64,000 nt of DNA from a virus: positions 17,075-81,074 of the IMG/VR virus record IMGVR_UViG_3300049740_002954; one strand, written 5' to 3'. The translations under genes and the position numbers were made by a program. This document shows positions 10,194 to 64,000 of this stretch, piece by piece; positions within the stretch are counted from its first letter, which is position 1, and every line of letters starts with the position of its first letter. The notes under the pieces are model-generated. The model saw nothing but the letters and a program-made list of their open reading frames with translations, was not told the origin of the DNA and searched no databases.

Positions 10194-11792
10194 ATGGATC
10201 AAGAATTTAAATATACCACCACTTTTGAGAATACAGTTTTTGCTTCGAGCGATATAGAAAACTCTAATATAAGCAAAGCCTCTCTTGAAGCTTTAAAGCC
10301 ATTAATCCCTAAAGATATTAATCTTGATAAAAATATTGATATTATTGGTGTTGCTTTTAATGCTGCAGTTGTTAATAAATTTAATAAAAATGGAGATGGC
10401 ATAGATAGCGAAGCTGCAGTAGCTGTAAAAGATTATTTCGTTCACAAGCCAACAAATATAGAGCATGACAGGGAAAAGATTGTTGGGCATATTGTTTCTG
10501 CGGGGTTTTCAAAATATGGTGGAGATTCTGAGCTAATGAATGAAGAATCTGCTTTAATAGAAGATGGGGCTTATAATATAGCATTGGCTGCAGTTGTCTA
10601 TCGAACAGCTAGCAAGGAATTTGCTGATTTAGTTCTAAACTCTACAGATCCAGAGAGCGACTTTTTTCAAACCGTTTCAGCAAGCTGGGAAGTAGGTTTT
10701 AATGATTATGTAATTTCTGTAGGTGGGGATGATTTAAATGATTGCACGATAATATCAAACCAAGAAGAAATTAAAGCTTACTCGCCTTACCTTAAAGCTT
10801 TGGGTGGAAAGGGCTACTTAAGCGATGGAAGAAAAGTTAATAGATTAATAGTTGGGGATATATACCCACTTGGCATTGGTTTTACTTCAAACCCTGCGGC
10901 AGATGTAAAAGGATTGGTGGCAGAAGATAATAAACCACAAGAAAAACAAACCTCTAGGAATCAACCAATTAGCCAATTAATCACAAAAACTGAAAAAACT
11001 TCCCATTCCAATAAACAAAATGTAATAAACAAAGAACTTAATAATATTATTATGGACAAAGATACAATCATAAATGAATTCCGAGCAGCTTTAGATGAAA
11101 AGCTTGGCAAGCAAGATTTCTCTGAGGAAAGTGTCGCAAGCATTTCTAAAGTGTTTATCGAAGCTATCCGAGAGAAAGGCGAACAGTATGTCGCCGATCT
11201 TGAAAAAGCTAAAGCTGAAAAAGAAGAAGCTGTTCAGGCTCAAAGCTCTCTTCAAGAAAAAGTGACTCAAGTAGAAAGTGAACTTGAAGTAGCCCAACAA
11301 AAGCTTAGCGCTTTAGAAGAAGAAAATGCTGCTAGAGACGCACAAATCAGATTTAATAATCGCATGGATGTTATTAATGACGCATACGAACTTGATGAAG
11401 AAGACTCTAAAATCGTAGCGACTGAATTAAATGATCTTGACGAAAGCGATGAAAGTTTCGCAGAGTTTCAAGAAAAACTATCAAAAATTTGGAAGCATAA
11501 AAACAAAGAGTTTATCGCTACAGAGCAAAAAGCTTTCGAAGATAGAGTGTCTCAAGAAGTAGAAAAGAGGATTTCTGAAACCTCGTCCGCTTCAACAGAA
11601 GAAGTTTCAGACCAAGCGTCTGAAGAAGCGTCAGAAGAAACAACTGAAGAATCAGAAGTTGAGGAAGTTCTCGACTCTCTTGAAGTTGAAGACGCTGCAA
11701 TCGTAAACAATAATGAAAGTTCGTCTGATGGTGAGTCGCTTCGCGACCGCTTCGCAAAAACTTTTAAAGAATCAGTTAAAATTTCATACTAA
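10194..11792 (+). CDS. Prohead protease fused to scaffold
   Basis: A 532-residue protein. Residues ~1-235 look like a T4 gp21/U9-type prohead protease, with the His motif NIEHDREKIVGHI (about residue 95) and the Ser motif FFQTVSASWEVGF (about 165). After a Gln/Ser linker (240-285), residues ~290-470 form a charged coiled coil typical of scaffolds, ending in an acidic Glu/Ser-rich tail. An in-frame ATG at 11052 (residue 287) lies exactly at the start of the coiled-coil part, so a nested scaffold product, as in the lambda C/Nu3 arrangement, is possible. The protein would shape the prohead and then cleave itself and the capsid proteins. Confidence 0.8.
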   Translation: MDQEFKYTTTFENTVFASSDIENSNISKASLEALKPLIPKDINLDKNIDIIGVAFNAAVVNKFNKNGDGIDSEAAVAVKDYFVHKPTNIEHDREKIVGHIVSAGFSKYGGDSELMNEESALIEDGAYNIALAAVVYRTASKEFADLVLNSTDPESDFFQTVSASWEVGFNDYVISVGGDDLNDCTIISNQEEIKAYSPYLKALGGKGYLSDGRKVNRLIVGDIYPLGIGFTSNPAADVKGLVAEDNKPQEKQTSRNQPISQLITKTEKTSHSNKQNVINKELNNIIMDKDTIINEFRAALDEKLGKQDFSEESVASISKVFIEAIREKGEQYVADLEKAKAEKEEAVQAQSSLQEKVTQVESELEVAQQKLSALEEENAARDAQIRFNNRMDVINDAYELDEEDSKIVATELNDLDESDESFAEFQEKLSKIWKHKNKEFIATEQKAFEDRVSQEVEKRISETSSASTEEVSDQASEEASEETTEESEVEEVLDSLEVEDAAIVNNNESSSDGESLRDRFAKTFKESVKISY

Positions 11793-24874: not shown

Positions 24875-26149
24875 ATGAATGATAAAGATTATGTTCTTCC
24901 AGACATCGAAGTTGAAAAAGTATATTCTGCGTTTGGCGAGATAGAAGGTTGGGGCCCAAAGCAATTAAATTTATCTAAAATTTGGGAAAAATACACAGGA
25001 AATGGAATTACTATTGGGGTAATTGATACAGGGTTGCCTGTGCATAGAGATATTAACGATAACGCTTTGCCTGGAGAAAGTTTTGTTGATGGGGAAGAAA
25101 TAGAAGATCTTCACGGGCATCAAACTCACTGCGTAGGGATTATATCTGCAAAAGATAATGATGAGGGTATGATTGGTGTCGCTCCAAAAGCAAAATGTTT
25201 ATGCATAAAAGGGCTAAGCAATTCGGGCAGAGGTAGTTCTGCTGGAATCGCAAAAGCGCTTGAATATTGTTTAGATAAAAATGTTGACTTGGTTAGCATG
25301 TCTCTAGGTAGTCCTTTTCCATCTACTCAAACACATGAAGTTATTAAAAAATTATATGCAAAAAATATTCCTGTAATTTGTGCCGCAGGAAACTCTGGTA
25401 ACGCAGGGGTAAATTATCCGGCCGCCTTCAAAGAATGTATAGCTGTGGCAGCGTACGATCAATTTCAAAACATTGCTTATTTTTCTTCAAAAGGTGGAGA
25501 GGTTGATGTAGCTGCCCCTGGGGTAAAAGTATATAGCACGTATTTAAATAACGCATATGCTTCAATGAATGGAACTTCTATGGCCTGCCCTTTCGTTGCT
25601 GGTGTCGTAGCGCTTTTAATTTCTAAACTCAGAGCAGAAGGAAAAGATTATACTGTTGAGTCGATTAGAAAAATATTAATTGAAACTGCAGACGACAAGG
25701 GGGAAGAAGGGAAAGATAATTCTTGGGGTTATGGAATAATTGATCCCGATTCAATTTTACTTAACACTCCAGATTTAAAGCCAGAACCTGAGCCAGAGCC
25801 AGAACCTGAGCCAGAACCTGAGCCAGAACCTGAGCCAGAACCTGAGCCTGAGCCAGAACCTGAGCCTGAACCTGAGCCAGAACCTGAGCCAGAACCTGAG
25901 CCAGAACCTGAGCCAGAACCTGAGCCAGAACCTGAGCCAGAGCCTGAGCCAGAGCCTGAGCCAGAACCTGAGCCAGAGCCTGAGCCTGGACCTAAGCCCA
26001 AAAAAAATAAAAAAATTATTATACCGATTATAATTGGTATATCTTTAGCTATTATAGCTGGAGTTATATTCCTAAATGATAATGAAGAGGTTCCCGAAAT
26101 AGATTGGGATCAAAAATTTCTTGACGAAAAAAATAGTAATCTAAATTAA
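24875..26149 (+). CDS. Membrane-anchored subtilisin-like protease with Pro-Glu spacer
   Basis: A 424-residue S8 family serine protease. The triad is intact: D51 (GVIDTGLP), H82 (HGHQTHC) and S235 (NGTSMACPF), with oxyanion Asn N173 (AAGNSG). The domain spans ~35-290. It has no signal peptide or recognisable propeptide. A Pro-Glu dipeptide tract (residues 303-371) leads to a Lys-rich turn and one hydrophobic helix (~380-397, [19 protein letters not shown]), followed by a short acidic tail. The domain is therefore probably tethered by a rigid spacer to the inner membrane or virion. It has its own GTGTAT promoter between nrdA and nrdB. The substrate is unknown. Confidence 0.88.
25781..25987 (+). 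repeat. Pro-Glu dipeptide tract (34.5 units)
   Basis: Sixty-nine consecutive codons alternate Pro and Glu inside the subtilase. Codons vary between CCA/CCT and GAA/GAG, so the protein pattern is kept while the DNA repeat is imperfect. Pro-Glu tracts form stiff extended rods like those of TonB-type proteins. Confidence 0.95.
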
Positions 26150-28557: not shown

Positions 28558-30828
28558 TTATTTTATAAATATAAATTCGTGAGTATTTATTAAAGTCCAG
28601 ATTATTTCTTTATATACCTCTTTTTTATCTTTTAATGACGATTTAAATAATGATATTTCTTTTGCGGATGGATTTCTATTTAGTATACATTTAAATCCAA
28701 CTTTAATTTTGTCGTCCAAAGATTGTTGAGATTCTATAGCTTTTATAACTTCAAAGTTTTTATTTCTTAATAATCTTGTTTCTACAAAGCCGTTGAGTAA
28801 ATTAAGTACCTGTGTTGCAGACGCGCTTTTGTTTGAATTTTCGATCTGCTCCCTGTCTGAACCACCAAACTCACGAATAAGGTGTCCTACGGGCGCAGGA
28901 GAGGGTAATTCAGAAGCTCTTACAGAATTCCGGTCTTTTACAAAGTTTTGCTTATAGTCATCTTTCTTTGCTTGTTGTTGAGATTTGAATTTATCAACAC
29001 AAGATTCGCAGCAAAACGCAACTGTCTCTCCGTTTTCATTTAGAGCTAGCAGAGTTGGATCAACAGCTCTTCCAGGTTTGATTGGACAATCTATGTTAAT
29101 TGGATCTGTAAATTTTGGCTTATTTGCGATTTTTGGCCTTTCTGTTTTATTGATTTTGGCCATAAGATCTTGAAATAATTCTTCGCCAGTCATTGCTGAG
29201 AAGTTTTGAAAGTCTTCATAGCCTTTTGTGTTTTGCTGAAGTTTTCTAGAATCTATATCGTTAAATGTTAAATTTACCAACGAATCCCAAACTTGTTCGC
29301 CGCTCATTCTTTCAAGCATTGGTCCTTGATAAAAATATGGAATAGCATTATGAGATTGTTTTTCAGTATTTGGACCTGCAACAATCCACTTTACATCTAC
29401 AGGCATAGACTGATCTTTATTGTCTCTTGGGATAACATCTCTTATTACAGATTCACGCTGAAAAGTTTTTGTATTATATAACACTCTTAAGAATTCTTTT
29501 AGGTCATAATCTAAGGCTACCATAACTTTTTCTAAATGCAACTGAAGTTTTGGGTCTGTAGCCAATGTATCGTCAAACATATTATCGATTGGCTCAATTA
29601 GAGCTAATCCAAAAGCTTCCTTCCATAACCTATTTACAACAACAGCTGTAAATCTAGGATTGGAATCTGTTGCGAGCCAATTTGCATATATTTCCCTCGA
29701 GCCAGCTTGAGGAGCTTTTGTCTTAATATCAATTTCTTTTCCAAAAATTGTTTTTCCAGATAATGTTTCGCTTGGCTTTGCGTTGTCGTATTGATAGTCA
29801 TTTGGTAAATTAATTTTTCCTGAACCCAGACTATCTAAGCCTGTTTGAAGAATGTCTTGAATGTTCCTAGATTCATTTCTTAGTTGTCTAGATTTTTGCG
29901 CCTCACCTGATTGCTCGAGTTTTCTTTGTTCTGTGTTGACCAATCTGTTAAACTGACCTAAATTATCAACACCTCTTCTTCTTAAATTTGTTGAGCCGCT
30001 TGTAAATGCGGCCATTTCATAAAATTGTTTTTGTGTCCAGCGATCAAATGGATGATCGTGGCACTGGGCGCATTCAAGACTGGTTCCAAGAAAAATGCGA
30101 ACTGTATTAGCCATATTGTCTAAGGGCATGTTTACATCTCGCGCAAAATAACTAACTCCTTCATTACCCCTTTCCCATAAAGCTCCAGATGAAGAAAGCA
30201 TTTCTCTTACCCAAACATCATATGGTCTATTGTTTGATATAAATTCTTTTACATAATTTTTATATGGTATACCTGATACTCTATTATTTAATCTATCTTT
30301 TATTCTTAATATATCAGCCCAAAAGTTAAACCAATGACTTGCATACCCTTCGCTACCTAATAGTTGATCTATTAATTTTGATCTTTTGTTTTTGTCTTTA
30401 CTATTTAAAAAGGTGTCTACTTCCGTTAATGACGGAGTTCTTCCGATAACCTTTAAATAAGATCTGCGTAAAAAAGTAGAATCATCAACTTCTTTATTTG
30501 GTCTAAGATTATATGATCTTAATTTTGTTTCAATTAAACTGTCAATATATCTTGCGTGCGTATTTAGATCATTATCTGATAGCGGTTTTTTCAATTTAGG
30601 TAAAGCTTCATGGCTAGGCGGAAAATTGTTTTTGATATAAGCTTGATTATCTTCTGTCAAGGAATCTATTGCTATTCTGAATAATTGCAAGTCACTTGCT
30701 CTTTTTATTAATGCGTGAGTGGCATTCGCTTCAAGAATATCTCCTTTTAAGTCTTTTCCGTTATTGAAATATAACGTATCTCCAAAACAATAAAAAGATG
30801 AGATTAATAATAAAAGTAGTTTTTTCAT
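28558..30828 (-). CDS. PSCyt2/PSD1 (DUF1549-DUF1553) secreted protein
   Basis: A 756-residue protein with a signal peptide (residues 1-16, KKLLLLLISSFYCFG). An N-terminal ~60-residue segment (LYFNNGKDLKGDILEANATHALIKR) resembles an SHD1-like beta module. DUF1549/PSCyt2 spans ~85-300, with a c-type haem-like CAQCH at 253-257 inside the family signature CAQCHDHPFDRWTQ. DUF1553/PSD1 follows at ~385-750, interrupted near 580-625 by a YHS/TRASH-like Cys module (CPIKPGRAVDP…VAFCCESC). These domains are hallmarks of Planctomycetes/Verrucomicrobia secretomes. It lies 21 nt upstream of the DUF1501 gene on the same transcript, behind a sigma-70 promoter. The function is unknown. Confidence 0.88.
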   Translation of the reverse strand: MKKLLLLLISSFYCFGDTLYFNNGKDLKGDILEANATHALIKRASDLQLFRIAIDSLTEDNQAYIKNNFPPSHEALPKLKKPLSDNDLNTHARYIDSLIETKLRSYNLRPNKEVDDSTFLRRSYLKVIGRTPSLTEVDTFLNSKDKNKRSKLIDQLLGSEGYASHWFNFWADILRIKDRLNNRVSGIPYKNYVKEFISNNRPYDVWVREMLSSSGALWERGNEGVSYFARDVNMPLDNMANTVRIFLGTSLECAQCHDHPFDRWTQKQFYEMAAFTSGSTNLRRRGVDNLGQFNRLVNTEQRKLEQSGEAQKSRQLRNESRNIQDILQTGLDSLGSGKINLPNDYQYDNAKPSETLSGKTIFGKEIDIKTKAPQAGSREIYANWLATDSNPRFTAVVVNRLWKEAFGLALIEPIDNMFDDTLATDPKLQLHLEKVMVALDYDLKEFLRVLYNTKTFQRESVIRDVIPRDNKDQSMPVDVKWIVAGPNTEKQSHNAIPYFYQGPMLERMSGEQVWDSLVNLTFNDIDSRKLQQNTKGYEDFQNFSAMTGEELFQDLMAKINKTERPKIANKPKFTDPINIDCPIKPGRAVDPTLLALNENGETVAFCCESCVDKFKSQQQAKKDDYKQNFVKDRNSVRASELPSPAPVGHLIREFGGSDREQIENSNKSASATQVLNLLNGFVETRLLRNKNFEVIKAIESQQSLDDKIKVGFKCILNRNPSAKEISLFKSSLKDKKEVYKEIIWTLINTHEFIFIK

Positions 30829-54717: not shown

Positions 54718-57546
54718 ATGAAAAGTATAGCATACTACCTCCCTCAGTTTCATACAATACCTGAAAACGATAAATGGTGGGGTGAGGGTTTTACAGAATG
54801 GAGCAACGTTAGAACGGCAGAGGCAATGTATGAAGGTCATTATCAACCCAAAGAACCTTTGGATTATTATGATTTGTCTGAAATAAACGTGATGAAAAAG
54901 CAGGTTCGTCTTGCAAAAAAATATGGCCTTTACGGTTTCTGCTTCCACTACTATTGGTTTCAAGAGAAAAGGCTTTTAGAAAAACCGATAAATAATTTTT
55001 TAAAAAATAAAAGCTCCGATTTAGATTTTCCTTTTATGCTGTGCTGGGCTAATGAGAACTGGACAAGGAGATGGGATGGAAAAGAAAATGAAGTGTTAAT
55101 ATCTCAAAAACATAGTGAGGAAGATTACTGGAAGGTTGCAGAAGATATATTTAAATATATAGATGACGATAGGTATATAAAAATAAATAATAAGCCATTA
55201 TTGATAATTTATAGACCTGAAATTATGACAAAATTTAATTATTTTGCAAAAGTATTGAGATTAAAGGCTTTTGAACGTGGGCTTGAAGGCATTGAGATAT
55301 TGTCAACTAATTCATTTGGATTTAAAAACAGAGACGGTTTTGATATAGATGGTATTGTTGAGTTCCCGCCTCATTTTCCTTCTGGAGATTTTGTAAAAAA
55401 ATCAACAGATATTAATACTAGAAGTGATTTTAATGGTTTAATTTACGATTATAAGCATTGCGTCAAGAAAAGTATAACCTATTATAATGAAAAACAGATG
55501 ACTCCAAAAAGTATAGATTATTATCCGTGCTCTTTTCCTTCTTGGGATAATACCGCTAGAAGAGGACTGGATTCTCATATTTGCGCAAACACTTCAAAAA
55601 AACTTTTTAAGAAATGGTTGAGGGGCTGTTGTGATTTTTCAAAACAATACAACCCTAAGGAAAAAGATTTTATATTTATTAACGCATGGAACGAATGGGC
55701 AGAAGGGGCAATTCTTGAGCCAGATAAAAAAAACGGACTGTCTTCGCTGAAGGCTCTGAATTCTGTAATGAAAGAATATGGTAATTTCGACGTACAGGCA
55801 GATGCAATTAATCCTTTAATGAAGCATCAACTTCATGAGGAAAATAATAATCCTGAAATTAATAATAAAATAAATCTGCATTATTGGCCAGGCATGGGGG
55901 GAAAGAAAAATTTCGGAGACGAAATGAGTTCTTACATAATGAAAAAACTACTCCCCTTTAAGGAGTTTTCTTATAATATTAATCCTAAGGAGTGCAAAGT
56001 AAATCTAATAGCCTTAGGCTCGTACATTCAAATGGCTGAAGATGATTATTATATTTTTGGTTCTGGAGTAAGGACAGAGGGCGATAGATCTAAGTACAAA
56101 AAACTAAACGTCATAAGTGTTAGGGGGCCAAAAAGCAGGGATTTTCTTATATCAAAAGGGGTAGCTTGTCCAGAATTGTATGGCGACCCAGGATTATTCA
56201 TATCTAGATATTATCATCCAACTATTGATTTTGGTTTAAAAGGAAAAATAGGTATAGTTCCCCATATAACAGATAAAACAAATTACAATAAAAATAACTC
56301 TGATAAATTTCATATAATTGATCCATGTCAGCACTGGATGAAGGTCATTGATCAAATTTGTTCATGCGAATCTATTGTTTCTTCTTCTCTTCATGGCCTT
56401 ATTTGCGCGGATGCATATAACATGCCTAACGTTTGGATGGAATATAAATTACTAGATGAAGGTGATTTTAAGTTTATCGATTATTTTTTAAGCCAAGGAA
56501 GGGAAATTAAGAAAATATCTTCCCTAGAAGATATAAGTAATGATGTTTTTTATCAAGGAGGAAATAATATAAATTTAGATAAATTATCAGAGGCTTTATA
56601 TTCTTCTAGCCTGAATAAGAAAAACAATAAAGAAGCGGTTAATGTATCTTTAATTAATCCTACTGCAATAACTCGCGATAACAAACAATACACTTTATAC
56701 CGTGGTGAAAAATATTTAAAAGGCAAACCTCCACCCATCGGGTTTAATAGAAGCGAGCTTAGTTACTGGCTTGAGTGTGACGGAGTAAAAAAGCAGTGCG
56801 TTTTTGATTTTGGAGAATATTCATACAAAACTATAAAAAGAATAGATATAGAAAAAAAATCAAACAAGTCTATTATTGAAGACTTAAGGTTTATAGAATC
56901 TTCTATAAAGCAAACGAAAAACGGATTAACTTGCTTAGCGACATGCACATTATTGCCGCATGTGAGAATTTACCACGGAACGAAAAATAAAAATGGAGAA
57001 TTCGACAAAAGCAAAGGCATTGGTCTTGCATATACTTTTAAAATGGCTTATTGCGAAGTTAATTTAACCCATGGCGCTATAAAATACAAAGGTATTATCA
57101 GTCCTGAGTCTCAAATAAAAAACGAAAAAAACTGGACATCGTTTATTCATAATAATAACTTTTTTGTGATATACTCAATATCGCCACTTGTTTACTCAAA
57201 AGCTAGCTCTCTTGAAGAAATAAAATTTAATAAAAACAATCTCCCAGACAAACTAGATTTTCACTGCTCAACAAATCCAATTAATATTGGGGTTGACAAA
57301 TTTGCAATGCTTTGTCATACAAGAAACCAAAGTAAGGATTTTTGCTATAACTATCAGTTGGTAACATTTAATATACTTAACGGGGAAATTATTAATATGA
57401 ATAAGTACGATGTTAACGTCGATCCTAAATTATACTGCTCATCGATTATTCTAGATAATAATAAAATTAAAGTTTTAGCTGGAAAAGAGGACTTAGACAA
57501 TTCTAGTTTTTATATTAATATTCCTGAAACAAAAACTTGTATTTAA
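54718..57546 (+). CDS. Three-domain WbsX/pyruvyltransferase/beta-propeller glycan enzyme
   Basis: A 942-residue fusion. Residues 1-~360 match WbsX/GH99-like proteins (IAYYLPQFHTIPENDKWWG, GFTEWSNV, FHYYWFQEKRLLEKP, CWANENWTRRWDG, INAWNEWAEGA). Residues ~385-635 match polysaccharide pyruvyltransferases (NFGDEMSSYIMKKLL, FGSGVRTEG, SVRGPKSRDFL, YGDPGLFISRYY, SSSLHGLICADAYNMPNV). Residues ~650-942 look like a five-bladed beta-propeller of the GH130/GT108 kind (EDLRFIE, KNWTSFIHNNNFFVIYSISPLVY). TATAAT at 54705-54710 ends 7 nt before the ATG. Domain functions are inferred; pyruvylation of a surface glycan is the clearest. Confidence 0.8.
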   Translation: MKSIAYYLPQFHTIPENDKWWGEGFTEWSNVRTAEAMYEGHYQPKEPLDYYDLSEINVMKKQVRLAKKYGLYGFCFHYYWFQEKRLLEKPINNFLKNKSSDLDFPFMLCWANENWTRRWDGKENEVLISQKHSEEDYWKVAEDIFKYIDDDRYIKINNKPLLIIYRPEIMTKFNYFAKVLRLKAFERGLEGIEILSTNSFGFKNRDGFDIDGIVEFPPHFPSGDFVKKSTDINTRSDFNGLIYDYKHCVKKSITYYNEKQMTPKSIDYYPCSFPSWDNTARRGLDSHICANTSKKLFKKWLRGCCDFSKQYNPKEKDFIFINAWNEWAEGAILEPDKKNGLSSLKALNSVMKEYGNFDVQADAINPLMKHQLHEENNNPEINNKINLHYWPGMGGKKNFGDEMSSYIMKKLLPFKEFSYNINPKECKVNLIALGSYIQMAEDDYYIFGSGVRTEGDRSKYKKLNVISVRGPKSRDFLISKGVACPELYGDPGLFISRYYHPTIDFGLKGKIGIVPHITDKTNYNKNNSDKFHIIDPCQHWMKVIDQICSCESIVSSSLHGLICADAYNMPNVWMEYKLLDEGDFKFIDYFLSQGREIKKISSLEDISNDVFYQGGNNINLDKLSEALYSSSLNKKNNKEAVNVSLINPTAITRDNKQYTLYRGEKYLKGKPPPIGFNRSELSYWLECDGVKKQCVFDFGEYSYKTIKRIDIEKKSNKSIIEDLRFIESSIKQTKNGLTCLATCTLLPHVRIYHGTKNKNGEFDKSKGIGLAYTFKMAYCEVNLTHGAIKYKGIISPESQIKNEKNWTSFIHNNNFFVIYSISPLVYSKASSLEEIKFNKNNLPDKLDFHCSTNPINIGVDKFAMLCHTRNQSKDFCYNYQLVTFNILNGEIINMNKYDVNVDPKLYCSSIILDNNKIKVLAGKEDLDNSSFYINIPETKTCI

Positions 57547-57549
57547 AAA

Positions 57550-58206
57550 ATGAATCATATATCCGTTATCATACCCACTGTATGGAAGGCTAATAGAGAG
57601 TTGATAAGAAGCTTATTTAAACTTCAAAGAGATGACTTTATTGAGGAAATTATAATAATAGATAACGACCCGAGTAAAACTCCTAATTTTATAAAAAAAT
57701 TTGATAAGGTAAAAGTGTTTCCTCAAGAAAATAATTTATTTTTTAACAAAAGCGTTAATCTTGGTGTTGAGCTTAGCAAGAATGATGTGTGTTGCATATT
57801 GAATGATGATGTAGTATGTGATGCAGCTCTTTTTTCTTTTGTGTGCGCTAATTACAGTTACATGATAGGTTCTTTATTTTTTGATCCAAGATTTGTTAAT
57901 CAAGAAACTTCCGAAGATATATTTATATATCAAGTAAATGAGTGGCCAGGCCATGGTTGCGCAATGGTTTTTTTTGTTAAAAAGCAGTATTTTTGTGAAA
58001 TCCCAAATGATATTATTCATCATTTTGGAGACAGTTATATATTTAATATGAATAAAATTATGGGGTTAGGAAATTATATTGTTTCAGGCGCGGGAATGTC
58101 TACTCCCGGTAGCGCTAGTGAAGATAATTTTATTAAGAAAATAATAAAAAAAGACTGGGAAGAGGGTTGGCCTAAGGTTAATGAAATTCTGGAAATTAAG
58201 CTATGA
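57550..58206 (+). CDS. GT2-family glycosyltransferase
   Basis: A 218-residue short GT2. HISVIIPTVWKANRELIRSL opens the fold, IIIIDNDPSKTP contains the NDP-binding acidic site, FFNKSVNLGVELSKNDVCCILNDDVV holds the metal-binding DD, and HHFGDSYIF with GAGMSTPGSASEDN forms the C-terminal catalytic part. A closely similar GT2 domain occupies the C-terminus of the next gene (58203-60101), sharing 'IIPT.WK', 'NNLFFNKS/EALFLNES' and 'NDD/NDE', so the two are probable duplicates. It overlaps the next gene by 4 nt. Confidence 0.82.
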   Translation: MNHISVIIPTVWKANRELIRSLFKLQRDDFIEEIIIIDNDPSKTPNFIKKFDKVKVFPQENNLFFNKSVNLGVELSKNDVCCILNDDVVCDAALFSFVCANYSYMIGSLFFDPRFVNQETSEDIFIYQVNEWPGHGCAMVFFVKKQYFCEIPNDIIHHFGDSYIFNMNKIMGLGNYIVSGAGMSTPGSASEDNFIKKIIKKDWEEGWPKVNEILEIKL

Positions 58207-60101
58207 TAAGTAATAAGATTAATTCTATAAGAGGACAAGAGATACCAAAAAAAATTCACGTTTCTTGGAAAAATAAAGATATATTAAGCTATGATTACTC
58301 TATTATAAACCAGGGCTTAGGGAACTTGCAAAAATTAAATTCAGAGTGGGATTTAGTTGTTTATGATGATGAAGACATTAATAAATTATTGAGAGATTCT
58401 ATAGGCGAAGATAATTGGCAATTAATAAAGAATAAAAAAATTACAGAAAAAACTGATTTATGGAGGCTATTAAAGGTTTACAAGGAGGGTGGGCTTTACA
58501 TCGATATAGATAGGTATGTGGATATTCCTTTATCGGAAATCATAAAAAAAGATACATCAATGGTTTTGCCTACTTTTTTAGATATAGATTTTTCACAAGA
58601 CTTTATATTAACCTGTAAAAATAATCCCGTTTTGGGTGAGGCCATATTGAGTAATTTAGAGTTTAGGAAAAATAAAATGCCTCTTTTTGATACTGCTGTA
58701 GATTCATATATGCGTTCTGTTTCAAGAGTAATTAGTGGTAAAGCTTTACCTAGAGGAAACAATAATAAAGAATACTTTAAGCAAATAAGAAAGGATATAG
58801 AGGTTTGCAGTTTTATAGAAACGTATAGAGAGGAGGGTCCCGGGAATCATATTTTATTTAGAAACATAGATGGGGATTTTGATCAGGAAATTTTTGCAAG
58901 AGATAAAGCTGAGCTTTATAATAGTCAAGGGGTTAAAAATTGGAATATTAATACTGTAGGCCAACATAATTTATTAAAGAAGAATGTCAAAAAAAAGAAG
59001 ATTAATTTTATATGGCAGGAATTAAAGGGCGGAGAGACGTGCCTTGAGCGTGAGTGGATTAATACTTTGTTCCAGGATTTTACTATTAATAATATTTCAG
59101 ATGAAGATTACTCTTGTGTTTTAGATAATAGCGTGGTTATTTATAGCGACATGTTTAGTGCAAAAAAAGAAGATTATCCTGAATCATTACATAAAACGCA
59201 CGATTTTATAAAAAAGCGTCAGAGAGAATATTTTAAAAAGTTCAAGAAAATAAAGAATTGCTATCTTTTTCATGTAAGCGATGAGTATGGCCATGCAGAG
59301 GTTTCTCATTATAAGTATTTTAAGCATGTATTTAGAAATTATTACAGAAAAGATTGTGAGAGCGGAAACATTTCTTTTGTGCCTCTTGGGTCCAATATTA
59401 AGGGTGTTAATGAAAAAAAATATTCAAAAAAATCATTTTCTATAATCTTACCTACATGTTGGAAGTCGCCCAAAAATTTAGTTAAAACTTTATGTTTATT
59501 GGAAAGGGTTGAATGCATTGATGAAATCATCATCGTAAATAATAATTTTAATTCTACTCCAAAATGTATTAGTGAATTTAAAAAAGTGATAGTTTTAACT
59601 CCTGGCGAAGCCTTATTTTTGAATGAAAGTATAAACATGGCTGTCCCTCAGGCCAGGAATGAAAATATTGCCATATTAAATGATGAGTGTTTTATTGATG
59701 TGTCTGTATTTGATTATCTAGGAGGCGCAATGGAGGAGAATAGTTCTTTATTTTTTGTAAATGAAAATTGTATGAATTTTAAATCAGATGAAAACAATAA
59801 TTTTTACGAAAATTTTGTAAAAGAAAAAGGCGACAAAATTGTTGATAGTATTGCTACGTGCGGAAGAATATTATTTTGTGCGTTGAAAAAACATGACTTC
59901 GCCCCTATAAGCAAAAGTGTAAGACATAATTTTGGAGATGTTTCTCTTTTTAATAATTTTCAAACAAGTGGAGGTGAAGGCAGGGAATTGATGGGATTTG
60001 AGCTTACTGTTTTTGATTGTGGGGAGAGAAACAAGAGCGAAAGATTGCTTGATGCGAAACTTAATGATTGGCTTGTTTATAAAAACGCAAAAAAAAATTA
60101 A
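58203..60101 (+). CDS. GT32 / GT47-N-half / GT2 fused glycosyltransferase
   Basis: A 632-residue fusion. Residues ~12-260 are GT32 (PKKIHVSWKNKDI, WDLVVYDDEDINKLL, KTDLWRLLKVYKEGGLYIDID with DxD). Residues ~265-400 (INFIWQELKGGETCLEREW, CYLFHVSDEYGHAE, VFRNYY, ISFVPLGSNIKG) look like the N-terminal half of an exostosin-like GT47 enzyme that stops short of its donor-binding half. Residues ~405-632 are GT2 (FSIILPTCWKSPKNLV, FLNESINMA, LNDECFI). The missing GT47 half seems to lie at the start of 61600-62856. Three activities in one chain are implied. Confidence 0.78.
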   Translation: MISNKINSIRGQEIPKKIHVSWKNKDILSYDYSIINQGLGNLQKLNSEWDLVVYDDEDINKLLRDSIGEDNWQLIKNKKITEKTDLWRLLKVYKEGGLYIDIDRYVDIPLSEIIKKDTSMVLPTFLDIDFSQDFILTCKNNPVLGEAILSNLEFRKNKMPLFDTAVDSYMRSVSRVISGKALPRGNNNKEYFKQIRKDIEVCSFIETYREEGPGNHILFRNIDGDFDQEIFARDKAELYNSQGVKNWNINTVGQHNLLKKNVKKKKINFIWQELKGGETCLEREWINTLFQDFTINNISDEDYSCVLDNSVVIYSDMFSAKKEDYPESLHKTHDFIKKRQREYFKKFKKIKNCYLFHVSDEYGHAEVSHYKYFKHVFRNYYRKDCESGNISFVPLGSNIKGVNEKKYSKKSFSIILPTCWKSPKNLVKTLCLLERVECIDEIIIVNNNFNSTPKCISEFKKVIVLTPGEALFLNESINMAVPQARNENIAILNDECFIDVSVFDYLGGAMEENSSLFFVNENCMNFKSDENNNFYENFVKEKGDKIVDSIATCGRILFCALKKHDFAPISKSVRHNFGDVSLFNNFQTSGGEGRELMGFELTVFDCGERNKSERLLDAKLNDWLVYKNAKKN

Positions 60102-60105
60102 TAAA

Positions 60106-61593
60106 ATGATTATAAATACAAAAAACATAAAATATTATTTTTTAACAACTCAAAGCGATTCGGTTAGAGCAAATTATACCAGGCAGCTTCTTGAGGATTA
60201 TAATTTAGAGGAAGTTAATCCTTATGAATTGGGCGTGTCTGTTGCAAAATCCGGAAGTATCGGTCATGCAAGAATGATAGAAAGAGGCGTCAGAAATCAA
60301 AGCAGAAAAAGACGTTTTGAGCCCTTTGTGATTTTAGAAGATGATATAGAATTTTATAGAGACATGCCTGAAGAAATTGACATTCCTGATGACGCTGATC
60401 TACTTTATATTGGAGTTTCGGGATTAGGTATGATAGATGGTAATTTTGCTCAAGCTATAATAGCCAACGAAATTGATGAAAATACGCTAAGGGTTTTTAA
60501 CATGCTGAGCGGACACGCTATTGTTGTATGCAGTATGGTTGGCGCTTTACTCTATCAAAAATGTATGGTAGATAGTTACCATAAGGAAAGGATGTGGGAT
60601 GCATATGTTGCTGAGTCGCAACCTTGGCATAATATATATTGTTTAAAGTCCCCAATTTTTTATCAGGCATCTGAAAGAGGTGGGAAACAAGTATGCACTA
60701 AAACTTCAATAAGCTCATTTGCTAGCCCAAATATGTTGAGAGACGATTATATGAATGATTTTAAATCTGATGCAACATATAAAATTATTGAGGGGGCTGT
60801 GTGCGATTTAAGTTTCTTGAGTAAGTTAAAACCCATTCCGAAAAAAGTTCACATGTCCTGGAGGAATAAAGAATTTATTCATAGCCAAAACCCTTTGGTT
60901 TTGAATGGAGTAAGGAATTTAATAGACATGAATCCTGATTGGGAAGTAGAGGTTTCAATTGACGTCGAAGATGTTGAGCAGTACCTTTCTGATAATTTAG
61001 AAAAAAAAGATTATGATCTGTTGAGGTCTAGACCCATAGTAGAAAAAGTTGATGTTTGGCGATTGCTGAAAGTGTTTCTTGAGGGAGGTATGTACATGGA
61101 TATAGATCGACACTGCAATAAAAAGTTAAATAGTTTGATTGGAAAGGATGTAAAACAAATTTTACCTTTTCACAAGCCAAAAAATACCATAATTGATTGC
61201 TCTCAGGATATAATCTTGACTTCTGCAGAAAATCCTATCATTGGTTACGCTTTAGATTTAAATTTAAGAAGAAGGAGAAGTGGGTGGGTCGACATTATGA
61301 CTTTGGGTCCTATAAATTATTTTCATGCGATTACTAGATTTTTGCATGGATATTCGGTTAATCGCTATCCACCAAAAGAAGTTATTGATCAAATATTATT
61401 GAATATAGAAAATTCAATATATATTGATTATTTTATAGAGAAACCTCCATTTGAGACTTTAATATTTAAATATGACGAATCCACATTTAAGGCTGGTAAC
61501 GGAGAAGACAAAGAGGGTTTGTATAAAGAAAGTAATGTGCCTCATTGGTCTATTGATAATCCTATAATAAGAGCTAATAGAAAGTTTGATTAA
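60106..61593 (+). CDS. GT25-like / GT32 fused glycosyltransferase
   Basis: A 495-residue fusion, starting at ATG 60106 five bases after the previous stop; the frame is open 108 nt further upstream with an ATG inside the previous gene. Residues ~1-235 resemble GT25 (YYFLTTQSDSVRANYTRQLL, GSIGHARMIERGV, FVILEDDIEFY, MLSGHAIVVCS). Residues ~245-495 are GT32 (PKKVHMSWRNKEFI, KVDVWRLLKVFLEGGMYMDID with DxD, DCSQDIILTSAENPIIGYALD). The GT32 half is paralogous to the N-terminus of the previous gene. It probably adds two sugars in sequence; donors are unknown. Confidence 0.8.
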   Translation: MIINTKNIKYYFLTTQSDSVRANYTRQLLEDYNLEEVNPYELGVSVAKSGSIGHARMIERGVRNQSRKRRFEPFVILEDDIEFYRDMPEEIDIPDDADLLYIGVSGLGMIDGNFAQAIIANEIDENTLRVFNMLSGHAIVVCSMVGALLYQKCMVDSYHKERMWDAYVAESQPWHNIYCLKSPIFYQASERGGKQVCTKTSISSFASPNMLRDDYMNDFKSDATYKIIEGAVCDLSFLSKLKPIPKKVHMSWRNKEFIHSQNPLVLNGVRNLIDMNPDWEVEVSIDVEDVEQYLSDNLEKKDYDLLRSRPIVEKVDVWRLLKVFLEGGMYMDIDRHCNKKLNSLIGKDVKQILPFHKPKNTIIDCSQDIILTSAENPIIGYALDLNLRRRRSGWVDIMTLGPINYFHAITRFLHGYSVNRYPPKEVIDQILLNIENSIYIDYFIEKPPFETLIFKYDESTFKAGNGEDKEGLYKESNVPHWSIDNPIIRANRKFD

Positions 61594-61599
61594 TTTATT

Positions 61600-62856
61600 G
61601 TGAAAGAAAATAATAAATTCATTAACAAAAAGTATGTTTGGTGCTTTATGGGTCAGTTAGAGGATAGGCCAACTAGAAAGAAAATGATAAACGTCTTTGG
61701 GTCTTTAAGTAAAAATTGTTTCACTCATAGTAATAGTTCTTGGCGATCTAAGGATATGATTAATAAAGATAAATATTTAGATATTATAAAAGATAGTATT
61801 TTTGTTCCATGTCCCAGGGGTAATAAGTCTGTAGATAGTTTTAGATTTTTTGAAACTTTAGAGTCAGGCTCTATTCCTATCGTTGAGGAAGAAGATGGTT
61901 ATTGGGAAAAAATATTAGGGGAAAATCCTTTAATAAAAGTGCAGCCTGATTGGAGTAACTTGAGCGAAAAGATATCTGAACTTTTGAACAATGAAGAAAA
62001 ATTAATCGATTATTCTAGAGAGTTAAACGATTGGTGGGTCAACTACAAAAACGGTTTGGTAAATAAAGTGTCCAAAGTTGTTGAGGTTTCTTCTGACCAA
62101 AAAGAAGATGCCAAACGAAAGGAATTTGTTCGATTAAAGAAGGTGTGGTCAGAATTAAAAAACTTAAAGTCTTTAGAGTTTATATCTGATAAGTTGAAAT
62201 ACGATAAGCCTAGTCCTGATAAGTTTAGTAAATATAATGCAGGTAAAAAAATTGCATTTGTTATGCTTTATACTCCTGAGATATATGATTTTTCTGCATA
62301 CTCAGAAGAAAATATTAAAGATTATTGTTATTTAAATAATTATACATTATATGTATATAGGGATTCTCTAAATTCAAAGGCTAGTCCTAACTGGTCTAAA
62401 TCAACAGCTATATTAAATCATATAAGAGATCATGATTATATAGTGTGGATTGATGCAGATTGTGTTGTTTTGAATAAAGATAAAAAAATCGAAAAAATAA
62501 TAAGAAAAAGCAAGAAAAATGCAAAGATAATTGCTTGCGAAGATATTGGAAAGAATTCTTTATTTAATAGTGGAGTGGTAATCTTTAAAAATCATTCTTT
62601 TGTTATTAATATTATAAATTCATGGAATAAGTTTGATGGAGACAAGTCTCATTTGTATGCTAGCGGAGGAGATCAGGAAGTTTTAATAGATATTATTAAA
62701 AGTAATGATTTTAATGGGTTTAATACTGAAATTTTAGACATGAATGAATTTAATACAGATCCTAGAATGTTGAATGAAGATAGTTTTATTTTGCATTTTA
62801 TGGCATACCCACTCTTTTTAAAGAAGATATTTATCTATTATTGTTGTTCTCTTTAG
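61600..62856 (+). CDS. GT47-C-half / GT34-like fused glycosyltransferase
   Basis: A 418-residue protein with a GTG start. Residues ~10-160 (WCFMGQLEDRPTRKKMINVF, IIKDSIFVPCPRGNKSVDSF, RFFETLESGSIPIVEEEDG) are the C-terminal, donor-binding half of an exostosin-like GT47 enzyme, whose N-terminal half seems to be inside the gene at 58203. Residues ~215-418 resemble GT34/Mnn10-type enzymes: AFVMLYTPEIYDFSAYSEENIKDYCYLNNY, WSKSTAILNHIRDHDYIVWIDADCVVL (D-x-D) and LFNSGVVIFKN…GGDQEVLIDII. It is the last gene of the cassette. Confidence 0.78.
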   Translation: MKENNKFINKKYVWCFMGQLEDRPTRKKMINVFGSLSKNCFTHSNSSWRSKDMINKDKYLDIIKDSIFVPCPRGNKSVDSFRFFETLESGSIPIVEEEDGYWEKILGENPLIKVQPDWSNLSEKISELLNNEEKLIDYSRELNDWWVNYKNGLVNKVSKVVEVSSDQKEDAKRKEFVRLKKVWSELKNLKSLEFISDKLKYDKPSPDKFSKYNAGKKIAFVMLYTPEIYDFSAYSEENIKDYCYLNNYTLYVYRDSLNSKASPNWSKSTAILNHIRDHDYIVWIDADCVVLNKDKKIEKIIRKSKKNAKIIACEDIGKNSLFNSGVVIFKNHSFVINIINSWNKFDGDKSHLYASGGDQEVLIDIIKSNDFNGFNTEILDMNEFNTDPRMLNEDSFILHFMAYPLFLKKIFIYYCCSL

Positions 62857-62883: not shown

Positions 62884-64000
62884 ATGGCTAAAATATTCCG
62901 TACCCAAAAATTACAACTTAATGGAAACTTTGTTTCCCTTAGGTCGCCAAATGTCGATGAGCTCGAAATTTTAGACTCAAACGGCAGCGTGATATCTAGA
63001 CCTGTTTCTGACATTTCTAGTTTACACGCACAGCGCATTGTTGACGAAGCTGGAACAGATAGCGATGTTTCTAGTCTTGCAGCCTTACGACAAAGCGATG
63101 AAGATACTACAGATAGCGACGTTTCAAGTCTCGCTCAAATTGCTTCTGGCAATACAGCGAATCTTGATAGCGATATCTCTAGTCTTCAAGTTCAACGTCA
63201 AGGTGACGAAGATGGAACAGATAGCGATGTTTCTAGCCTCTACGCTTTAGTAGAAGCTGATGACGCAAGTCAAGACAGCGATATCTCAAGTCTTCAAGCC
63301 CAACGCACAGACGACGAAGCTGGAACAGATAGCGATATCTCCAGCCTTCAAGCTCAACGCGTAGCAGACGAAAATGGAACAGATAGTGACGTTTCAAGTC
63401 TCGCTCAAATTGCTTCTGGTAATACAGCGAATCTTGATAGCGATATCTCTAGTCTTCAAGTTCAACGTCAAGGTGACGAAGATGGAACAGATAGTGATAT
63501 CTCCAGCCTTCAAGCTCAACGCGTAGCAGACGAAGATATGACAGATAGCGATGTTTCTAGCCTCTACGCTTTAGTAGAAGCTGATGACGCAAGTCAAGAC
63601 AGCGATATCTCAAGTCTTCAAGCTCAACGCACAGACGACGAAGCTGGAACAGATAGCGATATCTCCAGTCTTCAAGCTCAACGCGTAGCAGACGAAAATG
63701 GAACAGATAGTGACGTTTCAAGTCTCGCTCAAATTGCTTCTGGTAATACAGCGAATCTTGATAGCGATATCTCTAGTCTTCAAGTTCAACGTCAAGGTGA
63801 CGAAGATGGAACAGATAGTGATATCTCCAGTCTTCAAGCTCAACGCGTAGCAGACGAAGATGGAACAGATAGTGATGTTTCTAGCCTCTACGCTTTAGTA
63901 GAAGCTGATGACGCAAGTCAAGACAGCGATATCTCAAGTCTTCAAGCTCAACGCACAGACGACGAAGCTGGAACAGATAGCGATATCTCCAGTCTTCAAG
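62884..64000 (+). CDS. Fibre protein of 18-residue repeats, 3' end beyond the window
   Basis: The ATG at 62884 opens a frame that continues to the last base. The first ~40 residues (MAKIFRTQKLQLNGNFVSLR…) form a small head with a SPNVDELEILDSNG segment, then at least 18 complete copies of an 18-residue unit beginning DSD(V/I)SSL follow. Units fall into variants (QVQRQGDEDGT, YALVEADDASQ, QAQRTDDEAGT, AQIASGNTANL) arranged in a fixed order of five or six. It is probably a trimeric coiled-coil stalk of a tail or head fibre. A TATATA lies 8 nt before the ATG. Total length is unknown. Confidence 0.8.
   Translation, partial: MAKIFRTQKLQLNGNFVSLRSPNVDELEILDSNGSVISRPVSDISSLHAQRIVDEAGTDSDVSSLAALRQSDEDTTDSDVSSLAQIASGNTANLDSDISSLQVQRQGDEDGTDSDVSSLYALVEADDASQDSDISSLQAQRTDDEAGTDSDISSLQAQRVADENGTDSDVSSLAQIASGNTANLDSDISSLQVQRQGDEDGTDSDISSLQAQRVADEDMTDSDVSSLYALVEADDASQDSDISSLQAQRTDDEAGTDSDISSLQAQRVADENGTDSDVSSLAQIASGNTANLDSDISSLQVQRQGDEDGTDSDISSLQAQRVADEDGTDSDVSSLYALVEADDASQDSDISSLQAQRTDDEAGTDSDISSLQ
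63010..64000 (+). repeat. 54-nt (18-residue) coding repeat with 270/324-nt higher order
   Basis: Units of 54 nt starting GATAGCGAT/GATAGTGAT. The 'GTCTCGCTC…' marker recurs with offsets of 270 nt (63121 to 63391) and 324 nt (63391 to 63715), i.e. five and six units. The 324-nt blocks differ at only a handful of bases by eye, implying recent duplication. Confidence 0.93.

Follow-up and report, generated by a model that had tools for sequence, protein, structure and literature searches.

In GT-B glycosyltransferases, two lobes enclose a cleft that forms the active site, and neither half should work alone. Alg13/Alg14 of eukaryotes and EpsE/EpsF of bacteria and archaea are GT-B enzymes divided at the interlobe boundary, so that separate proteins carry the acceptor and donor sides, for which one split event at the base of the clade and later re-fusions have been proposed (PMC8993221). 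In the viral enzyme A075L, the catalytic base is Asp73 in the N-domain, while Arg158, Arg208, and Glu211 in the C-domain bind the donor (PMC11571054). Here, we describe a locus in which the predicted lobes of one such enzyme are encoded by two genes. It lies in a 64,000-nucleotide stretch of viral DNA (hereafter, the window), which covers bases 17075 to 81074 of an 81,074-base virus record and ends where the record ends. Because it encodes a terminase large subunit, a ribonucleotide reductase, a Pol III alpha-type polymerase, a DnaB-like helicase, and a RecA-like protein, the window reads as an uncultivated tailed phage. It also encodes a subtilase-family protease with a low-complexity tail like the trypanosome PARP repeat (24875 to 26149, + strand) and, unexpectedly for a phage, a protein with PSCyt2 and PSD1 domains (28558 to 30828, − strand; PF07583 and PF07587). 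These two domains are typical of Planctomycetes and relatives, and the protein is perhaps a hint at the host.

A first-pass annotation had placed the halves of a GT47 enzyme on two fusion proteins separated by a further gene, and the three reading frames (58203 to 60101, 60106 to 61593, and 61600 to 62856) are as it described, with the N-half motifs FHVSDEY, FRNYY, and VPLG in mid-protein (about residues 356 to 396) and the C-half motifs at the beginning of the second fusion protein (Table 1). We searched all 481 stop-to-stop open reading frames of at least 40 aa in the window with a 293-position profile built from 23 uninterrupted relatives and zero split sequences. This contiguous-only profile matched just two of them (58200 to 60098 and 61594 to 62853), with positions 4 to 133 matching inside the first protein and positions 132 to 291 at the start of the second, so that the enzyme was tiled once by complementary matches with a two-position overlap. 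No match was obtained with 20 shuffled copies of all window reading frames. Profiles that include split sequences give E-values that are partly self-matches, and the contiguous-only profile is the clean one. Split relatives were partitioned in the same way (profile positions of about 2 to 134 and 113/135 to 292), and in uninterrupted viral and bacterial relatives positions 2 to 292 were matched within one reading frame. The proposal that these are halves of one enzyme, contiguous in relatives, was thus borne out, as a single profile, and not two different families, accounts for both. The seam between the halves is the linker between the GT-B lobes, and the additional modules are located precisely there.

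Table 1. Features of the split glycosyltransferase locus, in window coordinates.
Feature	Position	Strand	Basis
Stand-alone GT2 gene just upstream, homologue of the GT2 domain fused behind the N-lobe	57550..58206	+	Pfam Glycos_transf_2 4.3e-10; phmmer
632-aa fusion protein: GT32-like domain, exostosin/RXYLT1-like N-lobe, GT2-like domain	58203..60101	+	ORF; Pfam Gly_transf_sug 3.7e-7; contiguous-only profile; GT2 by homology to relatives' GT2 domains
GT32-like domain (Gly_transf_sug) of the 632-aa protein	58203..58988	+	Pfam and homology search
N-lobe (acceptor side) of the split GT-B enzyme	58995..59426	+	Profile 4-133 of 293, E 2.5e-16; strand/helix order as in the N-lobe of an uninterrupted relative
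SDE motif (Ser359-Asp360-Glu361); Asp360 aligns with A075L Asp73	59277..59285	+	Alignment and profile-to-PDB alignment; Asp73 role from PMC11571054
GT2-like domain directly behind the N-lobe, at the C-lobe's expected place	59421..60098	+	phmmer: E 2.7e-20 to the 57550 gene, 4e-28 to L033, 4e-27 to L011
Intervening gene: phrog_24091 N-terminal domain and GT32-like domain	60106..61593	+	Pfam, homology
418-aa fusion protein: exostosin/RXYLT1-like C-lobe, then GT34-like domain	61600..62856	+	Pfam RXYLT1_C 1.7e-12, Glyco_transf_34 1.9e-7
C-lobe (nucleotide-sugar donor side) of the split GT-B enzyme	61606..62082	+	Profile 132-291 of 293, E 4.7e-40
FRxxE motif (Arg82, Glu85), aligning with donor-binding Arg208 and Glu211 of A075L	61843..61854	+	Alignments; PMC11571054
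GT34-like domain core	62305..62541	+	Pfam PF05637, residues 236-314

The N-half of the window matched zero Pfam families. The C-half passed RXYLT1_C (PF24785; 47.6 bits against a cutoff of 27), a threshold that was also passed by split and near uninterrupted relatives and failed by three distant ones, and it fell below the gathering cutoff of Exostosin GT47 (PF03016; 30.1 bits against 33.4), which some split relatives passed (L006 with 35.3, L007 with 37.9, and L008 with 39.3 bits). Because the C-half is below the Exostosin_GT47 cutoff and the N-half lacks a Pfam match, "exostosin-like" appears a safer label than "GT47"; the earlier GT47 assignment holds as a likeness, and in the strict sense the enzyme may belong to GT47, GT114, or another family. 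Of the GT25-GT32 label given to the middle gene, the GT32 part was recovered (PF04488), and the N-terminal part of the gene had no match to Pfam GT25.

We modeled the uninterrupted 295-aa relative L021 with AlphaFold (pLDDT 89.6, pTM 0.87; linker at about residues 124 to 145) and found the two-lobe GT-B architecture in this model, whereas the window pair is GT-B by homology only. Foldseek returned 74 PDB matches to it at E ≤ 0.001, among the matches listed mostly GT-B glycosyltransferases, including EXT1/EXT2 and A075L (8asa, 3.3e-6). The N-half of the window was predicted with the strand and helix order of the L021 N-lobe and then ends (pLDDT of about 60 to 88 in the lobe), i.e., as a single lobe and not as a complete enzyme; the 58203 protein was folded from an alignment without GT2 rows, and its GT2 region was poorly predicted. 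In the PDB, the enzyme-family profile matched A075L (8q8i, 7.9e-8) and human EXT1 (2.7e-7). In the profile-to-PDB alignment, the SDE motif falls on Ser72-Asp73 of A075L, weakly (6.4 bits) and in register, and FRxxE falls on Arg208/Glu211. By alignment, the catalytic and donor-binding residue sets are kept in the window, one set per protein: SDE on the 58203 protein, and R82 and E85 on the 61600 protein together with R26, the counterpart of Arg158 as read from the alignment only. The predicted catalytic base would thus reside on one protein and the predicted donor-binding residues on the other. The uninterrupted L021 group carries SNE instead of SDE, and the Glu of this SNE may be its catalytic base.

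Relatives were found with alignment queries, as scanning viral contigs with the C-half sequence alone returned nothing. In an annotated phage collection, there was no close relative of either half (one weak N-half match and zero C-half matches), of the 58203 protein as a whole, or of the portal-like protein. The related viruses with an uninterrupted enzyme that the first-pass annotation had suggested looking for do exist: All relatives found outside the clade of the window, viral and bacterial, are uninterrupted, with viral and Chitinophaga sequences (L015–L021, L034–L044, L045, and L072–L131) belonging to the same family over both lobes, and more distant viral relatives likewise carry both lobes in one reading frame. 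The L015–L021/L045 group shares 26 to 42% identity per lobe with the window, and the linker in L015–L021 runs FIPLGVKSGFINKNEN..KEYEFAFIGQ. We had considered L034–L044 as "C-only" loci lacking an N-lobe, which was rejected upon finding a diverged N-lobe upstream in the same reading frame. One of these loci, L040 (283 to 3588; also L041 and L042), encodes an 1102-aa protein in which the entire enzyme occurs twice in tandem behind a Methyltransf_24 domain. Among 197 genomes of Chitinophaga's family, we found two full-length uninterrupted relatives (in a Chitinophaga genome and one more), four partial matches, and no split version.

Within the viral clade, by contrast with these uninterrupted relatives, the split was found in 16 of 16 records, always with the N-half before the C-half on one strand. 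The comparison loci are contigs from metagenomes and fragmentary, and about 13 of the 16 records are distinct (L008/L010, L013/L014, and L032/L033 being near-identical); in a group defined by the portal, all four records that show the locus are split. Six records (L004, L005, L008, L010, L013, and L014) have adjacent halves, where the N-half ends in FIPLGYKKGFK(S)-stop or similar and the start codon of the C-half overlaps that stop. The other ten carry cargo exactly at the seam, amounting to 0.6 to 2.2 kb of coding sequence: a gene of ~246 aa without an assigned family (L003 and L007), a GT2 fused to the C-half (L006 and L011), a GT34-like gene (L009 and L012), a sulfotransferase (L032 by Pfam and L033 by near-identity), a GT32 fused behind the N-half (L002), or, in the window, both a GT2 attached to the end of the N-half and an additional gene. 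The N-half is typically preceded by GT25 or GT32 modules, with GT32 in the case of the window, and the C-half protein typically terminates in a GT34 module. The fused extra domains thus vary among records, while the lobes are constant, with one N-half and one C-half in each of the eight records checked, one of which also has a second, distant C-like match.

The surrounding glycosyltransferase operon has a portal-like gene on one side and a fibre-like gene on the other, the latter encoding a repetitive protein (62884 to 64000, + strand) with repeats around DSDISSLQAQRVADENGTDSDVSSL that is cut by the end of the record. Upstream of the split enzyme lies an adjacent pair of DUF2827 genes (PF10933; 51841 to 54011, + strand), and by sequence L002 and L003 carry similar pairs in the corresponding position. 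The pair in the window is followed by a fusion of WbsX and pyruvyl-transferase domains (54718 to 57546, + strand), whose C-terminal region resembles, by eye, an internal segment of the C-half protein of L003 and of L007 and could on this visual impression be another module moving around the locus.

The split is the derived state, because all outgroups are uninterrupted, and the tree is compatible with a single fission origin (AU p 0.436). The order of the later events can be read from closely related pairs. L005 and L006 share about 98% DNA identity on both sides of the seam, and L006 carries a GT2 reading frame of ~720 nt exactly there; L004 and L007 are 96% and 90% identical on the two sides and differ by 1.7 kb at the seam. 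In L012, the sequence just before the C-half (11160 to 11185), ATGAAAGGATTTAAATTGTGAAAAAG, comprises the last codons and stop of an N-half together with the C-half start and is a remnant of the empty seam; a 19-nt near-copy lies across the insert, at 10352. A wider search for recurrent seam repeats stayed near chance outside the junctions. Adjacent, overlapping half-genes, near-identical pairs that differ by an insert, and the L012 vestige establish, on comparison of these loci, that fission came first and insertion later. The earlier suggestion that an insert had split the enzyme was accordingly rejected, given the adjacent half-genes in relatives and the vestige behind the L012 insert.

The two lobes do not share one history. 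N-half data reject the grouping of L004 with L012 (AU p 0.0005) that the C-half tree favors, and C-half data reject the L004–L007 group (p 0.005) that the N-half tree favors. These discordant trees show that the lobes were re-paired by recombination at a fine scale, which means that an exclusive, co-evolving pair is not required and, if the lobes do bind, implies a conserved interface. N and C distances correlate (r 0.855), as would also be expected from shared ancestry alone. In a simple pairwise count, dN/dS was mostly 0.08 to 0.3 for both halves, showing purifying selection on each.

What maintains the two lobes can be considered in the light of these data. The idea that the halves are remnants of a pseudogene, or a product of misassembly, is suggested by the split arrangement itself and by nothing else; the reading frames are open and conserved with dN/dS well under 1, and the same split recurs in independent contigs from many metagenomes with different inserts, which already refutes this idea and leaves it a negligible probability. 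It is highly improbable, too, that frameshifting, splicing, or an intein joins the halves into one chain in the cell. While the gene overlap of a few bases in six records could in principle permit fusion by a frameshift, the C frame is −1 in L004/L005 but +1 in L013/L014, simple joining is impossible across the intervening coding sequence elsewhere, window included, and no intein- or intron-like sequence was seen in inserts read by eye.

Nearly identical DNA flanking exactly bounded inserts, the 19-nt seam repeats around the L012 insert, and the discordant N and C histories are what one would see if the lobes were retained chiefly as anchors, providing homology for cassette exchange at the locus, but anchors need DNA identity rather than low dN/dS and conserved catalytic residues. 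We regard this as very unlikely to be the reason for lobe retention, although an anchor role may be true as a consequence. A further alternative is that the lobes no longer form one enzyme, with the N-lobe reused for binding or scaffolding and the C-lobe for binding nucleotide sugars, each aiding its fused glycosyltransferase domain. Each lobe is indeed fused to other glycosyltransferase domains, the lobes recombine independently, and Rossmann lobes can fold alone. Yet both are kept in the same order in every record of the clade, with one of each in those checked, the fused domains vary where the lobes do not, and retention of SDE on the N-lobe and FRxxE on the C-lobe makes little sense for scaffolds; we consider such separate reuse unlikely.

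We find it likely, instead, that the locus encodes a two-protein GT-B enzyme whose lobes pair in trans, akin to Alg13/Alg14, within a glycan-building phage operon. Trans assembly is the best reading because active-site residues are kept on both halves and both are under selection. In the sequence of events that we propose, a one-chain exostosin/RXYLT1-like GT-B enzyme was broken at its interlobe linker by a stop and a start, probably in the ancestor of the viral clade, and both lobes were retained in one operon as separate, tightly spaced genes. The new gene boundary then behaved like any boundary in a modular glycosyltransferase locus, where complete sugar-modifying genes were inserted and, in some genomes including the window, were fused to one lobe or the other. 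Fission, seam insertion, and cargo fusion are demonstrated by comparing the loci. Binding of the N-lobe, with the acceptor site and catalytic Asp, to the C-lobe, with the nucleotide-sugar site, would restore one active site, and the pairing would bring the attached GT32, GT2, and GT34 domains into one glycan-building complex, although fusion to bulky extra domains could hinder it. More tentatively, the glycan may decorate the virion or the host surface, because the operon lies between the portal-like and fibre-like genes. A broader and rather doubtful idea is that the split acts as an engine of glycan diversity, where recombination re-pairs half-enzymes that carry glycosyltransferase modules and the seam gains sugar-modifying genes, changing the multi-enzyme complexes.

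The informative states are still visible, i.e., the uninterrupted enzyme, half-genes that abut with their stop and start codons overlapping, a cargo-filled seam, and cargo fused to a lobe, and they form a natural series in which to study how an enzyme persists after being divided and whether the division exposes it to modular recombination. As no Pfam family matches the N-half, enzymes of this kind seem to escape annotation that relies on whole-domain profiles.

Among known enzymes, the chlorella virus PBCV-1 protein A075L, now in GT114 after an earlier listing under GT47, is likewise a viral GT-B enzyme and, with EXT1, the closest solved relative by sequence, with a fold match too; unlike the split enzyme, it is one uninterrupted chain from a eukaryotic virus, and the sequence identity between the two is low. 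RXYLT1 (TMEM5) resembles the window enzyme in that the C-half passes its Pfam family, and EXT1/EXT2 do so through the profile match to EXT1 and the fold matches to both, whereas all of these are one-chain animal enzymes and the window halves lack a match at the Exostosin_GT47 cutoff. The viral and Chitinophaga relatives differ from the window in having both lobes in one reading frame. Alg13/Alg14 and EpsE/EpsF share with the viral clade the placement of the lobes on separate polypeptides, seen here in every record, but they are cellular and GT1/GT28-like while the viral enzyme is exostosin/RXYLT1-like, and their pairing is demonstrated while that of the viral halves is proposed. We know of no cassette insertion at the Alg13/Alg14 or EpsE/EpsF split. 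The viral split is apparently an independent case of a two-protein GT-B enzyme, in another family.
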